Below are positions 3,685 to 13,627 of a DNA stretch of 24,267 bases, one piece after another. The notes below the pieces were generated by a model. The model ran no database searches, had not been told where the DNA came from, and worked only from the letters and a program-made list of their open reading frames with translations. Made by a program: the position numbers and the translations under genes. Position 1 is the stretch's first letter; every line of letters begins with the position of its first letter. Source of the stretch: a virus; the IMG/VR virus record IMGVR_UViG_3300015371_000170, positions 1-24,267 of that record; one strand, written 5' to 3'.

Positions 3685-3932
3685 TTTGATAATCCTCTCT
3701 CTCGCGTTACTCTACCATCCCTAACTCGACGCTCCCATTCCATTCTGAGAAGCGTGAGCCAAGCTACTCGTGTCTTGTTATCTGCAACACACTCCTGATA
3801 ACCCATCCCTATCAGAAACAAAGAAATGTTCCTCAGATGGTTGTTATCGAGATGCTGAATTGGGATAAGCTCTCCCTCTTTCGTCTTCCAGCAGAGCTGA
3901 CCAATTCTGTCCTCCATCAGCTCGAAGTCCAT
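3672..3932 (-). CDS. Conserved small phage protein (WKTKEGELIPI type)
   Basis: The protein has 86 residues. The segment WKTKEGELIPIQHLDNNHL followed by a hydrophobic helix and a basic tail matches a short protein type I know from many phage early regions (W-T-x-x-G-x-x-I-P-I then H-L). Its function is unknown to me. The ATG shares its A with the TAA stop of the gene upstream (TAATG at 3930-3934), a coupling typical of this cluster. No metal-binding or catalytic motif is visible. Confidence 0.65.
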   Translation of the reverse strand: MDFELMEDRIGQLCWKTKEGELIPIQHLDNNHLRNISLFLIGMGYQECVADNKTRVAWLTLLRMEWERRVRDGRVTRERGLSKWRM

Positions 3933-4144
3933 TATGATGCCTTTCTTCTCGGCTTGTAATCGTAGAAGGTCGGTTGCTCCTTGATGTGAAAAGCATCAGC
4001 TAAAATGGTCGCAACAACCCATGACTTGGAAACCCCATGAGTCCTTGCCAATGCCTCTACCTTCTCCTCGATCGAATACAGGACGGATGGAGTCAGGTGA
4101 GCACGACCACCTTTGATTGCCGGTTGCCGACGGATCTTCTTCAT
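3932..4144 (-). CDS. Ribbon-helix-helix-like DNA-binding protein (putative regulator)
   Basis: The protein has 70 residues. After a basic N-terminus, AHLTPSVLYSIEEKVEALAR plus THGVSKSWVVATILADAF has the strand-helix-turn-helix pattern of CopG/Arc-type ribbon-helix-helix proteins, including the G-V-S-x-S turn before helix 2. These form dimers that bind operators. It is the only protein here that looks like a sequence-specific regulator, so it is a candidate partner for the repeated boxes near 12.4-14.0 kb, although nothing links them directly. The leader upstream is A/C-rich, with AAGGA about 6 bases before the ATG. Confidence 0.55.
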   Translation of the reverse strand: MKKIRRQPAIKGGRAHLTPSVLYSIEEKVEALARTHGVSKSWVVATILADAFHIKEQPTFYDYKPRRKAS

Positions 4145-8639: not shown

Positions 8640-10385
8640 TTATGCAGCCCACTTCTTCAGACCCTTGACGTGCAGGGTCATCGCGAGTTCCTTGATCAGC
8701 ATCGATTCATCCCACTTGGTTTGAATATTGTCCATCGTGGAATGTGTGATGCTTCTCTTGATCTCAACCAGCTCTGTCAGGAAGTCATCAATGGTCCCCG
8801 CTGCGATCAGGTAGGTAGCATTGATCTTATCTGCAAGCTGACCGGGCCTTGGGAATCTCGCTTCGGCTTGCTCTTCATTAGCAGGATTCCATTGCCGTTC
8901 CATGATCATGCAGTCAGCACAGAACTGAAGGTTGAGACCCTCGCCTGCTGCCAACGTGCTTGCGATTAGGATTCGATGATTCCTGCCAGTCGGCCTTTCT
9001 GTAATTACCGGCTTGCCATCCTCATCGTAGGTTCGCTCTTGCGTAACTCCTTTGAACTGGTTGATGACCTCTTGCCTCTGCTGCATTGAGAGCGAAGAGA
9101 CATACAAGAGAGGCTCATCGAACGCGCCATCTTCACAAGTCTTGAGAAGCGCATTGTAGAGCATGTTCCCGGTGTCTTTGTGGTGAACGAATATCACCAG
9201 CTTTCGGTCGGTAGAGAGAAGAAACTCCTCAGCAAATTCCTGTGCCGATTCGACCTTAGCCGCACCAGTAATACGACGCATCCTCGAGAAATACCCAAGG
9301 ATGTTCGTTATGTCTTTCATGGACACTTCGTCGACTTTGTCCATGAACTCCTGAAACTCTTTGACGACCGCTTTGTATTTCTCTAGCAGGTCGCCACCAA
9401 TCTCAGCATGTCGAAACATCCGAGATATTGCAGGGAGTTCAGGAAGCACCTCGGCTCTTGTGAAGCGTTGGATGAAACCCTTTGTTTTCTCGTGAAAGGC
9501 GTTGGGATTCCGAAGTCTGTATCGGTTCCCACTTCCAATCGCAATACAGTCCCGAGCGATAAAGCCGGTTTCGGAAGGGAACATTGTCGGATTGACCATG
9601 TGGAGAATGGGAGCGTATTCTGAAGCGTCGTTCTTGATTGGCGTTCCAGAAAGACCCATAATCTTCGGTCGCTCGGTCTGTGTTCTCTGCCAAGCCGATG
9701 CAATCTTCTTGATGGCCCTTGTTCGCGAGGCATCAGGATTCTTGATTAGCTGGCATTCGTCCATGATAATCATTTTGAACTGAGAACAGATTTCGTCAGT
9801 CCATTTGATTGACTTCGCCTTGAACTTCCGACCGTTGCGTGCGAACTCCTCACCGACCAAACCGGCTTCGTTCATCTTTTCCCACTCAAGGTCAATGTCT
9901 GGACGAACCAGACGAAGAGTATCGTAGGAAATGATCACGATTGGGAAGTAGTCGAGATAGGGAAGCTGGTTTCCGTTCTCGATGATCTGAGGAATCAACC
10001 CAGTCCATCGAACGAATTCGAGCCATGTCTGATAACGAAGCCCCGATTTGCAAACGAAGAGCATCGGAGTCATTTCCTCTTCGTTCCGCTTCGTCAGGAT
10101 GGCTGAGATGACCATCTTCCCGACGCCCATCTCATGAGCCATGATGCCGTTCAGTCCGGCTTCCTCGAAGAACTTCGCGCTCTCTAGCTGATAGTGATAC
10201 GGTGTTCGTCCATCCTTTGAAACGATGATGTCTTCAAGCGGCGTTTCGATCTTGTCCTGAACCAGAGAATGGCCGCACTCAAGCATCACGAAAATCTGCT
10301 TGCCAAGCTCCTTTCGATACTTCTCGACCGCGACCTTGCCGCAGAAATTGCAGTTCTGTCTGAGTGTTGCGATTGGCTTGCTCAT
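8640..10385 (-). CDS. SNF2-family DEAD/H-box helicase/translocase with N-terminal zinc site
   Basis: This 581-residue protein has an N-terminal zinc knuckle (C12, C15, C37, H39). Two RecA-like lobes of an SNF2 ATPase follow. They carry motif I HEMGVGKM at 84-91, motif II MDECQ near 211, motif III LSGTPIKN near 250, motif V ASTLAAGEGLN near 478 and motif VI ARFPRPGQ near 513. It would use ATP to move along or remodel double-stranded DNA, probably in replication or recombination with the Sak4 and Cas4-like partners downstream. Motif I ends in Met where family members usually have Thr/Ser, and motif VI reads RFPRPGQ where R-x-x-R-x-G-Q is usual, so activity may be altered. The ATG overlaps the preceding stop as ATGA at 10382-10385. 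Confidence 0.85.
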   Translation of the reverse strand: MSKPIATLRQNCNFCGKVAVEKYRKELGKQIFVMLECGHSLVQDKIETPLEDIIVSKDGRTPYHYQLESAKFFEEAGLNGIMAHEMGVGKMVISAILTKRNEEEMTPMLFVCKSGLRYQTWLEFVRWTGLIPQIIENGNQLPYLDYFPIVIISYDTLRLVRPDIDLEWEKMNEAGLVGEEFARNGRKFKAKSIKWTDEICSQFKMIIMDECQLIKNPDASRTRAIKKIASAWQRTQTERPKIMGLSGTPIKNDASEYAPILHMVNPTMFPSETGFIARDCIAIGSGNRYRLRNPNAFHEKTKGFIQRFTRAEVLPELPAISRMFRHAEIGGDLLEKYKAVVKEFQEFMDKVDEVSMKDITNILGYFSRMRRITGAAKVESAQEFAEEFLLSTDRKLVIFVHHKDTGNMLYNALLKTCEDGAFDEPLLYVSSLSMQQRQEVINQFKGVTQERTYDEDGKPVITERPTGRNHRILIASTLAAGEGLNLQFCADCMIMERQWNPANEEQAEARFPRPGQLADKINATYLIAAGTIDDFLTELVEIKRSITHSTMDNIQTKWDESMLIKELAMTLHVKGLKKWAA

Positions 10386-11242
10386 ACCGGCAAGCCTTTC
10401 TTGACCCGCTGTGCTCTCACACCAGCGATTGCGTCATCGAGCGTTTCGAACATCCCGTTGTCCAGAAGAGCCTGCGCGCTTTTCTTAATGTCGTTCTGAA
10501 TCTTCGCAGTCGCCGTTTCCAAGCCCCGCTCGGATTTGATTCTTTCGGCGACCTTCTGGTTCTGGGCAACTGTCCAATCCTTGTCTAGTTCCTTGATGCG
10601 CGCACGGTCCTTAGTGGAATAGAGCTTCTCGACCAGACCAGCCTTGATCCCCTGTTGATGATTCCTGAGCTTCGAAATCGCTTCGTCGATGTCGTGAAAC
10701 TTCTTGATGACCTCGTCGATGGTTGCCGCGGTCACTGCGAAATTGCGCCCGTTGATGTAAACGTTGTTGAGCGATTCAGGGGCGCGCACCTCTTGAGTCT
10801 CGCTCAGGTGCTTCGTTTCCGCTCCACCGGGCCATACGACGGTTTCCACGCTGAGCAGTGTCTTGTAGTCCGGAATCGAATCAGGCGGCTGATATGGTGG
10901 AGCTTCAGCCGTGACATTCGGAGCTACAGGATGAGCCGCAGGGTCACTTGGAGGAGCTGGGAGATTCGTGTATGGAGCCTCTTTCCACCAAGTCTCCTCT
11001 TTTGGCTTTGCGGGTTGAGAAGCAGGTTCGACACTTGAGGTTTTCGGTGATTCGTCCGTTTCGGCCACCTTTTCGGATGACTTTTCGGACGAGCTGACCT
11101 CCGCATCTCCGGCAAATCTTTTCCATTCGTCTCCATCTCCATCTTTCGATTTGGTTGCGAGGAAGTCGTCGAAGCTGCCAAATTGCTGGGCCTCGCGATC
11201 TACCTCATTTACGAGTTCTTCCAATCTGTCTTTCTGTTCCAT
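10382..11242 (-). CDS. Hypothetical early protein with C-terminal shared module
   Basis: This 286-residue protein has an acidic N-terminus (1-45) and a Ser/Glu/Pro-rich disordered linker (45-130). A small folded part with VYINGRNFAVTAATIDEVIKKF (~163-185) follows, then long charged helices (190-250) and a final ~32-residue module. That module, with LLDNGM, TLDDAIAGV and KKGLPV at the very end, is repeated with 21 of 32 identities at the end of the unrelated protein at 13034-13627. The family is unknown. Position directly ahead of the helicase, coupled by ATGA, suggests a replication accessory or adaptor. The start has GGAAA about eleven bases upstream. Confidence 0.65.
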   Translation of the reverse strand: MEQKDRLEELVNEVDREAQQFGSFDDFLATKSKDGDGDEWKRFAGDAEVSSSEKSSEKVAETDESPKTSSVEPASQPAKPKEETWWKEAPYTNLPAPPSDPAAHPVAPNVTAEAPPYQPPDSIPDYKTLLSVETVVWPGGAETKHLSETQEVRAPESLNNVYINGRNFAVTAATIDEVIKKFHDIDEAISKLRNHQQGIKAGLVEKLYSTKDRARIKELDKDWTVAQNQKVAERIKSERGLETATAKIQNDIKKSAQALLDNGMFETLDDAIAGVRAQRVKKGLPV

Positions 11243-11246
11243 TGTT

Positions 11247-11492
11247 CTACGCTTTCCTAATTGTTGCGTGGTTTCCGTTCCCTGAGCCGTTGATTCTGAG
11301 ATTCCAGATTTCAGCTAGGGCGATGATCGAGGCGCGCTCGAATTTCGTTAGCTCGAAGAAATTGGGATCGTTTTTGAATGCCGCGATCCTCTTCCTTCTC
11401 TTGATGATTTCGATGCTCAACCTCTCCGTTGGGAGAGATAAAGCTCGAAGCTTCTCGTTGCGATAATAGTCTCCGAAGCTCATTTGGTCCAT
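11247..11492 (-). CDS. Small hypothetical early protein
   Basis: This 81-residue protein begins MDQMSFGDYYRNEKLRAL and contains a basic helix (IEIIKRRKRIAAFKND) and a hydrophobic one (FERASIIALAEIWNL). The ATG at 11492 has AAAGGA five bases upstream, which decides against the longer frame starting at 11549. It precedes the 286-residue gene by 4 bases. I recognise no family. The basic helices would suit nucleic-acid binding. Confidence 0.55.
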   Translation of the reverse strand: MDQMSFGDYYRNEKLRALSLPTERLSIEIIKRRKRIAAFKNDPNFFELTKFERASIIALAEIWNLRINGSGNGNHATIRKA

Positions 11493-11564
11493 TTTTCCTT
11501 TCTGATCGCCAAGAATTAGGCCATCTGGAGGAGGTTCGAAAACCCCCACCGCATGGTCTAGTCT

Positions 11565-11786
11565 TTATCTGAGTTCATTCAAGGAACGTTCATACTGCGC
11601 ATATAACCAGCTCGCGTCGTCCCACAGCTCGCAGAGAGCATCAACATCACGATCCCATATAGCTTGGTAAACGCTGGCAATTAGGTCTGGAGGACATATT
11701 TCTACATTGTAACTGAGAGTAATATTCTTCCAACAAACATCGAGCCACGGACCACGAATTATTAACTGAAAATGCCTTTGAGCCAT
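11565..11786 (-). CDS. First gene of the leftward transcript, hypothetical
   Basis: This 73-residue acidic protein with many Trp (WLDVCWKN, IWDRDVDALCELWDDASWLY) is probably a small helical domain. No family is recognised. The ATG has AGGAG about six bases upstream and lies ~70 bases downstream of the predicted start of the promoter at 11864-11892, so it should be the first and perhaps earliest expressed gene. Tiny acidic first genes in phage early transcripts often bind host proteins, but that role is only inferred here. Confidence 0.55.
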   Translation of the reverse strand: MAQRHFQLIIRGPWLDVCWKNITLSYNVEICPPDLIASVYQAIWDRDVDALCELWDDASWLYAQYERSLNELR

Positions 11787-11863
11787 ATTTACTCCTGTGA
11801 CCAGAGCCAGAGCCTAGACCGGAATTGGTGACAAAGGACTGGCGAGGGTTGGTCCACCTAGGC

Positions 11864-11892
11864 ATTGTAGCATACCCCGGCAGGTAAAGCAA
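11864..11892 (-). promoter_or_regulatory. Leftward sigma70-type promoter for the early cluster
   Basis: On the minus strand, TTGCTT (11892-11887) is followed by a 17-base spacer and TACAAT (11869-11864), with a TG one base before the -10 (extended -10). The transcript would begin near 11857, about 70 bases before the first early gene. No other good promoter is seen before that gene. Confidence 0.6.
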
Positions 11893-12100
11893 TAGGGGCT
11901 TAAATGCTGCAAACAAAGGGGTTACGGCTTTTAGGGCATCAGACCCCCTTTCAGAATACAGTCTAGAATCTATATAGACCAGGAAGAAATAGATGAGAAA
12001 TAGAGCCTAATAATAGGAAGGTAGATACGAGGTCGGAAGCCGGGAAGCCTTGAAATGAGAAATCGTGCCAAATTTCCATCCAAAAATTTGAATAATGGCG

Positions 12101-12120
12101 ACTTTCGCCTACTTTCGCCT
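12101..12120 (+). repeat. Exact 10-bp tandem repeat
   Basis: ACTTTCGCCT occurs twice in tandem, directly in front of the left 11-bp array. With the preceding GGCGA it can also form a small stem (GGCGA/TCGCC, 3-base loop). Confidence 0.8.
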
Positions 12121-12180
12121 ACCTTAAATCTTAGTCAATTCTTAGTTAAATCATAGTTAAATCATAGTTAATTCTTGGTC
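12120..12180 (+). repeat. Left 11-bp tandem array (iteron-like)
   Basis: Four clear and two degenerate units of 11 bases follow one another, with consensus WTAGTTAAWTC: TTAGTCAATTC, TTAGTTAAATC, ATAGTTAAATC and ATAGTTAATTC, flanked by partial units. One unit per helical turn would put bound proteins on one face of the DNA. The same unit recurs inverted at 12501-12555, so the pair probably marks a replication origin or a looping regulatory site. Confidence 0.75.
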
Positions 12181-12250
12181 GCCCTAGGGTATTCGAGATC
12201 TCGGTAAAGCCTTGATCCAAAAGGGCTTAGCGCATTTTACCCTTCGATCA

Positions 12251-12265
12251 TCTCTCTCTCTCTCT
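12251..12265 (+). repeat. TC dinucleotide tract
   Basis: About seven TC units lie between the left array and the AT-rich dyad. This pyrimidine-only strand bias is common near origins but is not specific. Confidence 0.7.
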
Positions 12266-12322
12266 GTCTAGGGGCATGATCCGGGATTTTGGATCGGGGT
12301 TTTGAACGGGGGTCTTTTCTCT

Positions 12323-12361
12323 CTTGTCTATAATAATATATATAAAATTAGATAAGACAAG
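12323..12361. repeat. AT-rich dyad, candidate unwinding element
   Basis: CTTGTCT (12323-12329) and AGACAAG (12355-12361) are inverted around a 25-base core that is all A/T except one G. It sits near the middle between the two inverted 11-bp arrays, as expected for the easily melted part of an origin. A TATAAT inside it lacks a -35 at normal spacing, so I do not call a promoter. Confidence 0.55.
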
Positions 12362-12383
12362 AACCAAAACCAGATACCGCAAT

Positions 12384-12394
12384 AAGTGTTCGCC
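12384..12394 (+). promoter_or_regulatory. AAGTGTTCGCC box, copy 1 (operator candidate)
   Basis: This exact 11-base sequence occurs three times in non-coding control DNA: here, inverted at 12710-12720, and at 14001-14011. Copies 1 and 3 both continue into a [C/G]GGCA sequence and are followed by an exact ATTTACAGGGGC box. A protein-binding site is likely, though the protein is unknown. Confidence 0.5.
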
Positions 12395-12500
12395 CGGCAT
12401 ACAATTATCCAATGGCCTGCCACGGAGAGAGACAGGGTGCGCGCTTAGATCAATTTTCCGCGCCGTATTTACAGGGGCGATCAATTAAACCCTCGACCCA

Positions 12501-12555
12501 GAATCGACTATGATTTAACTAAGAATCGACTAAGAATTAACCAAGATTTAACCAG
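12501..12555 (-). repeat. Right 11-bp tandem array, inverted relative to the left
   Basis: Five adjacent 11-base units (GAATCGACTAT, GATTTAACTAA, GAATCGACTAA, GAATTAACCAA, GATTTAACCAG) are the complement of the left-array consensus. GATTTAACTAA is the exact complement of the left unit at 12142-12152. The two arrays face each other across about 320 bases. Confidence 0.75.
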
Positions 12556-12941
12556 GTGAGATACGGCTCAGCTAGGGGAGGTCTGCTCGCTAGGGTGATC
12601 CCAGAAAATCGTTCGTGGCCCCTAGAAATTGATCTAAGCGTTTTGGGATCTGCTTCGGCTACCCTTGGTCTCCTCGAAAATGCGCGCGTTAGATCAATAA
12701 TTTTCGGGAGGCGAACACTTTCGATTTGTCTAGTTCGCCTCCGGTCTAGAATCCGCCTCCGGTTTATGGTCCTGGGTCTCGGCGCTCGGCGAGGTCTTCG
12801 AGCCTGCGGTATCTGGGGAGGGTGAGGTCTAGAATGAATCCTTGACTATGGTCAAAAACGGGGGGTCTCAGGCCCGAAAATTGGGAAGCTGTAAAGCATT
12901 GCAATTCAAGCATTTACGGGCGAAAAAATAATTGAAAATAA
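12556..12941. other. Non-coding control DNA between the right array and the rightward promoter
   Basis: No gene is supported here. The only open frame (12556-12825) gives Arg/Leu/Gly-rich translation without motifs. The stretch holds two of three copies of TTAGATCAAT (12628-12637 inverted, 12689-12698), the inverted AAGTGTTCGCC box, a perfect 10-bp inverted repeat at 12707-12742, and two GGTCTAGAAT sequences (12743 and 12826). Confidence 0.6.
12707..12742. repeat. Perfect 10-bp inverted repeat
   Basis: GGAGGCGAAC (12707-12716) and GTTCGCCTCC (12733-12742) could pair around a 16-base loop. No T-run follows on either strand, so it is not a standard terminator. The left arm contains most of the inverted AAGTGTTCGCC box, so it may be an operator with dyad symmetry. 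Confidence 0.65.
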
Positions 12942-12972
12942 TTGCTGCAAAACCTTGATCCTATGGTATTCT
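12942..12972 (+). promoter_or_regulatory. Possible rightward extended -10 promoter for the 13034 gene
   Basis: TG-G-TATTCT (12964-12972) is an extended -10. The best -35, TTGCTG (12942-12947), is 19 bases away, which is long. An ATTTACGGGC sequence resembling the late-promoter box lies 20 bases further upstream. The late promoter has the same ATGGTA preceding its -10. Confidence 0.4.
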
Positions 12973-13033
12973 GTAGTTCGGTTCGGCGCTGGCGGCAAGC
13001 CAAAAACGGCGAGCGGGTGACCGAGGTTCGGAG

Positions 13034-13627
13034 ATGAGAACGATGGCAAAAAAGAACGGCGGCGGGAAAGTTAACCTCGTATCTAACGGAGCAGTGAAAA
13101 TGACTACAGAAGTAGTGGCAGAACCGAAGGCGGAAACGAAAGGCGAATTGCGCGGAACGTATGCGGCAACGGCGGTATACAACCTGAGCGCAGATGCAAT
13201 CGCAGCGGCAATCGCGGAGAAGCTGATCGCGAACGTGGGGACCACGGCGGTAACGATCAGCGCGAAGATCGCCGGAACGAAGATCGATCAGTTCGTGAAT
13301 TACGAGAAGCTGATCGCGCTTACGGCGGAAGGTCAGAAGCTTCTCGCGGGTGGCAAGATGGAACCCGCTACCGATGCGCCGGAATCCGGTAAGGATGAAC
13401 GGACAGCGGAGCAAAAGGCGAAAGGCGCCTGCGATCATTTCAATTACGGATTCGATCTTGAGGTCAAGCGCGATCTTCGCGGCAAGCTGGCGGAGATGAT
13501 CGAAGGTCCGGCGAAGGCGATCGCGAAGGCTGCTCAGGTCATGCTCGACAACGGGATGGCCGATACGCTGGATGAGGCGGTTGCAATGGTGAAGGCATCG
13601 CGCGCGAAGAAAGGACTTCCGGTCTAA
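13034..13627 (+). CDS. Unknown Ala-rich protein with C-terminal shared module
   Basis: This 197-residue protein is the only sizeable gene of the central rightward unit. The N-terminus is basic and flexible (KKNGGGKVNL). The middle is Ala/Ile/Val-rich, with TYAATAVYNLSADAIAAAIA and a VTISAKIAG strand pattern. The last 32 residues repeat the C-terminus of the early protein at 10382-11242 (LDNGM, TLD-E/D-A, KKGLPV). Codons are more GC-rich and uniform than in its neighbours, which can indicate high expression or a different origin. A start at 13043 (MAKK) is equally possible. A weak extended -10 lies upstream and an intrinsic terminator downstream, so it is transcribed separately. No function is recognised. 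Confidence 0.7.
   Translation: MRTMAKKNGGGKVNLVSNGAVKMTTEVVAEPKAETKGELRGTYAATAVYNLSADAIAAAIAEKLIANVGTTAVTISAKIAGTKIDQFVNYEKLIALTAEGQKLLAGGKMEPATDAPESGKDERTAEQKAKGACDHFNYGFDLEVKRDLRGKLAEMIEGPAKAIAKAAQVMLDNGMADTLDEAVAMVKASRAKKGLPV

Follow-up and report, generated by a model that had tools for sequence, protein, structure and literature searches.

Why should two phage proteins that are encoded on opposite strands, and that look dissimilar over most of their length, end in nearly the same residues? An earlier note on this DNA had pointed to such a pair, here called P286 and P197, and had proposed that their common C-terminal segment could serve as a docking, assembly or delivery signal. The window analysed here is an entire virus record of 24,267 bases. 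As related records reach ~48 kb (48.7 kb for G005 and 47.6 kb for G012), the window probably represents about half of a genome.

Gene layout and related genomes

The P286 and P197 genes are in two divergent operons that flank a control region without clear genes. Genes of the leftward operon resemble those for DNA metabolism: an SNF2-type DNA helicase (phrog_62; 8640-10385, minus strand), an exonuclease with a PD-(D/E)XK domain and a Sak4-like annealing ATPase. The stop codon of P286 (286 aa; 10382-11242, minus strand) overlaps the helicase start codon within the sequence ATGA. The rightward operon begins with the gene for P197 (197 aa; 13034-13627, plus strand), and the large terminase subunit (TerL) is encoded further downstream. 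By our reading, the 887-aa protein encoded after TerL, which had no PHROGs match, looks like a portal protein.

Scans of IMG/VR viral contigs with single proteins or with alignments of two to three rows yielded few relatives, whereas a TerL-based scan was successful. Using P197, TerL and improved alignments as queries, we identified P197 orthologues in G001, G002, G005, G007, G008, G012, G013, G015, G016 and G017. The P197 sequences of G005, G007, G008 and G015 were identical, leaving eight distinct sequences with the window included. Seven of the eight keep a MAKK start, which corresponds to the second ATG of the window gene (13043); this is probably the true start, such that the protein would have 194 aa and the listed open reading frame would be three residues too long. 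P286 orthologues were found in G001, G002 and G003 (the latter two identical), G005/G007/G008/G015, G012 and G013. The G001 protein is truncated by the contig end and its C-terminus is not visible. We also noted that G003 (28.9 kb) and G010 (20.0 kb), which come from the same metagenome (3300045952), may be two pieces of one ~49 kb virus near G002: the G010 TerL is that of G002, and the P286 and helicase of G003 are those of G002.

Inspection of the control region revealed two arrays of an 11-bp repeat (TTAAATCTTAG-like) at 12118-12185 and 12506-12562. The arrays are in opposite orientation, with arms that are 84% complementary, and the 312 nt between them include an AT-rich stretch. Repeats with an 11-bp period were present in the corresponding region of seven related lineages, weakly in G017; in six of the seven no period ranked above 11 bp, and in the other it came second to 22 bp. 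The repeated sequence itself differs in most lineages (TTCCAAGCTGA, AGACCTGTTAA, AAAGATACCAG, CTGAGCCAATA). The arrays resemble a phased site for a co-evolving binder, for instance an origin, an operator or a partition site; their inverted layout sets them apart from parC of plasmid R1, where the repeats are direct. A 70-aa protein encoded at 3932-4144 on the minus strand, which appears ribbon-helix-helix-like by eye, is a candidate binder.

P286 and P197 share a C-terminal module

Residues 252-286 of P286 (10385-10489, minus strand) and 163-197 of P197 (13520-13624, plus strand) align in exact C-terminal register with 23 identities in 35 positions (66%), and with 21 identities over the last 32. 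The Smith-Waterman score of the P286/P197 pair was 118, whereas the scores of 2000 shuffles averaged 35 and peaked at 70. A tblastn search of the module against the whole window gave an E-value of 1.1e-12, and a hidden Markov model (HMM) built solely from the five closest P197 orthologues recovered the P286 end at E=1.7e-15. The regions before the module were unrelated, as the best local score between them (28) was lower than the mean obtained on shuffling the full-length proteins. Thus, the coordinates, reading frames, 21 of 32 identities and common KKGLPV end reported in the earlier note were all correct, as was its view of the upstream parts; the likeness that it described is also far above random level.

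The DNA identity of the two module copies was only 64%, with dN of 0.33 and dS of 1.56, indicating that the copies are not recent duplicates. The inference that the module is not a recent DNA copy was therefore sound. The supporting claim that the shared codons differ everywhere outside GACAACGGGATG was mistaken, since 12 of the 21 shared residues are specified by the same codon.

The module is constitutive in the P197 family

The module forms the C-terminus of each of the eight distinct P197 sequences, from which we conclude that it belongs to P197. The five closest lineages end in KKGLPV or RKGLPV. The three most distant orthologues have lost KKGLPV and carry eroded versions, the G016 protein ending in AAGLDI; matches of their ends to the five-lineage HMM were weak (1.6e-4 for G016, 0.0016 for G017 and 0.095 for G012), but these ends align at the same place in the full-length alignment. 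On these comparisons, the module is native to and constitutive in the P197 family only, within a group of uncultured phages with ~48 kb genomes.

No significant match to the module was found in Pfam, PHROGs, NCBIfam, PDB, plasmids, cultured phages or GTDB genomes, and the GTDB genome contigs contained neither P197 nor the module. Plasmids gave no match. Cultured phages yielded nothing for P197, P286, two distant P197 orthologues or a 109-aa protein described below, and matched the module only at E-values of 0.2 or worse. Two phage matches were dismissed as chance, one lying in the middle of a TM4 protein and the other, which was non-significant (E=6), near a C-terminus in E. coli phage HSE2. 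No Pfam, PHROGs or NCBIfam match for P197, P286 or the module had an E-value better than 0.006, and each was confined to one or two members. PDB sequence matches at 0.007 or worse (muconate cycloisomerase and others) were also treated as chance. The module and the P197 and P286 families are new to the libraries searched. A scan of viral contigs with the module only, using one peptide pattern that would miss divergent carriers, returned P197 carriers only. Inspection of 14 whole records (including G003, G005, G008, G012, G013 and G015-G017) revealed no further copies beyond the carriers named in this report.

Replacement of the native P286 tail

In the complete P286 orthologues, similarity to the window protein stops at about residue 240-264 and gives way to a tail of their own (GAGIKLADVYADVMG...KKFKGAK or relatives) of 46-47 residues that is mutually conserved. 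This native tail was seen in three lineages besides the window: G005/G007/G008/G015 with G013, G002/G003, and G012. An HMM of the tail matched P286 orthologues only, and the window protein was not among them; in the window the module occupies the place of the tail. We considered whether the native tail might be a distant version of the module, and rejected this on finding no similarity between the two in a profile comparison. The earlier note had named homologues without the module as evidence against its proposal, and the P286 orthologues with visible C-termini are such homologues.

The helicase gene directly follows P286 in the lineages checked, and the overlap between the P286 stop and the helicase start is present in the window, G002, G005, G012 and G013; it was thus retained through the swap. 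In a tree of the P286 body the window grouped with G005/G013 (support 95/95), whereas in an outgroup-rooted TerL tree it was nested inside the group with G001, G002, G012 and relatives (97/100). Mosaic genomes would produce such a disagreement over the nearest clade. Because native-tail lineages surround the window in both trees, tail replacement on the branch leading to the window is the simplest history, and from these sequence comparisons it is very probable that P286 of this line exchanged its native tail for a P197-type module. With 20-23 identities in 38 positions, comparison of the P286 module with those of P197 singled out no donor lineage.

Two other explanations of the shared end fared poorly. 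A chance likeness of helical ends or an assembly artefact might be entertained in view of the short segment, the metagenomic origin of the record and the single genome known to carry the swapped P286. However, the E-value of ~1e-12 and the shuffle test argue against chance, while a misassembled copy would not be expected to share only 64% DNA identity with its source or to leave the P286 frame running intact into the ATGA overlap with the helicase gene, and we regard this explanation as highly improbable. The suggestion that P197 and P286 are paralogous along their whole length and have diverged in all parts but the end, which the earlier note had set against its own proposal, accounts for the exact register of the ends but has next to no likelihood, given that the orthologues carry another, conserved tail and that the two bodies differ in both sequence and predicted structure.

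A third carrier in the G005 sub-clade

In G005, G007, G008 and G015, a gene ~130 bp downstream of P197 encodes a protein of 109 aa (MAKKYDGGGYG...) whose C-terminus is a divergent version of the module. Its module matched that of P197 with a blastp E-value of 5e-5 (within its own locus) and the P197-only HMM at 2.7e-5. In G005 the gene (L067:1393-1719) is on a clean insertion of ~500 bp between P197 and the next gene. The corresponding G013 locus (L060) does not contain the ~500 bp and is otherwise collinear, with 79-88% DNA identity in the flanks, indicating that the 109-aa gene is a recent gain or loss. The N-terminal part of the protein had no match in other related loci or in cultured phages. 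It is not a shrunken P197, as the bodies are unrelated and scored at shuffle level.

The earlier note had asked whether the module always sits at C-termini and in at least two genes per genome. The first was true of all three kinds of carrier. The second was not, as the second carrier depends on the lineage: P286 in the window, the 109-aa gene in the G005 sub-clade and none found elsewhere. A tagged pair on either side of the control region is not supported as a standing feature of these phages.

Predicted structure and constraint

In the AlphaFold2 prediction of P197, a long helix (133-157) leads into the module, which consists of two helices (residues 159-172 and 179-192) with pLDDT near 90; the overall values for P197 were pLDDT 72.5 and pTM 0.57. 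The P286 model was poorer (pLDDT 60.6, pTM 0.22), although its module (77-88) scored above the rest of the protein. The predicted order in P286 is N-terminal helices, a disordered middle, a long helix and the module. The fold search covered P197 only, as the P286 model was too poor, and found no fold match; Foldseek matches with E-values of 0.5 or worse were treated as chance.

Across the five P197 lineages, 22 of the 38 module positions were invariant, and P286 keeps 16 of these 22. Invariant positions made up 25 of 34 in the long-helix segment (125-158), 18 of 33 in the module helices and 17 of 75 in the alpha/beta part. Five of the last six residues were invariant even though they are predicted to be coil. 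Because predicted coil is conserved at the extreme end, we favour a contact surface here, probably for a partner. By prediction, the module folds autonomously as a small domain of two helices joined by a turn and followed by the conserved coil KKGLPV.

Possible roles of the module

Our model is that in the line leading to the window a copy of the module took the place of the native P286 tail, probably through recombination at the boundary of the domain that was either nonhomologous or guided by short homology, and that another copy came to sit on the separate inserted gene after P197 in the G005 sub-clade. The module would mediate protein-protein assembly, either by self-association or by binding the partner of P197, and a protein that gained it would join the P197 complex. 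P286 of the window, a protein of the helicase operon, would thereby be tied to P197. We consider this combination of a swap with an assembly role for the module to be reasonably likely, and we cannot choose firmly between self-association and a common third partner. A more specific version, in which P197 forms a multimeric structure through the module and different lineages recruit different proteins (P286 or the 109-aa protein) by grafting this plug onto them, is tentative. Of the docking or assembly signal proposed in the earlier note, a discrete, old C-terminal module stands, for which partner binding is the most natural reading; a general docking code for two proteins is not supported.

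Alternatively, the module could be a docking or delivery tag for one third partner, such as the capsid, the portal, a replication centre or a host protein, in which case the carriers need not touch each other. The strictly C-terminal position in three kinds of carrier would fit such a tag, as would the KKGLPV coil after helix 2, which is invariant in the five closest P197 lineages (apart from one K/R change) and in P286. On the other hand, at most one second carrier was found per lineage, and in most none, the larger contigs searched whole (G005, G008 and G012) gave no additional copies, and 35 residues with two helices constitute a small domain rather than a tag. We therefore think this alternative rather unlikely.

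It is more doubtful still that the module binds nucleic acid, for instance to hold P197 and P286 on the control region that separates their genes. The module end is slightly basic (net +1 to +2), P286 is part of a DNA-metabolism operon, and arrays of 11-bp repeats lie in the control region that separates the two genes. However, no DNA-binding fold was matched, and most lineages have wholly different repeat sequences, a turnover not seen in KKGLPV or the core of the module. We consider this role improbable.

Relation to known systems

The sharing of fragments between otherwise unrelated phage proteins has been described as domain mosaicism by Smug et al. 2023 (PMC10684548). Their criteria were that the fragment makes up no more than 50% of either protein, that identity reaches 30% (50% for contemporary events) and profile-profile probability 95%, and that the fragment is 50 aa or longer (PMC10684548); recent shuffling was reported in some core replication proteins as well (PMC10684548). 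The case described here lies within the coverage limit (35 of 286 and 35 of 197 residues) and the identity limit (66% over 35 residues). At 35-38 aa it falls below the 50-aa cut-off of that survey (PMC10684548), but it is the same kind of event. It differs in that a single genome contains both carriers, whose families have no assigned function and no PHROGs match. Judged by its sequence, the swap appears to be a clear and fairly ordinary instance of the shuffling of phage protein parts known as domain mosaicism.

Small C-terminal docking elements have precedents. The scaffolding protein of phage P22 binds the coat protein through a C-terminal helix-turn-helix, and the P197 module would likewise be a small two-helix element at a C-terminus. 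The likeness is one of predicted shape. P197 opens the rightward operon and adjoins no identified capsid gene. Encapsulin cargo-loading peptides are C-terminal signals on unrelated proteins that bring them to one partner; these are short peptides, whereas the module is a helix pair, but both are found at the C-termini of unrelated proteins.

Taken with its relatives, this locus offers a before-and-after view of a phage protein that swapped its C-terminal domain for that of the product of a nearby unrelated gene. If the module does act as a recruitment plug, it would be a small tag, of ~38 residues, and would provide a direct way to find what the conserved P197 protein assembles with.
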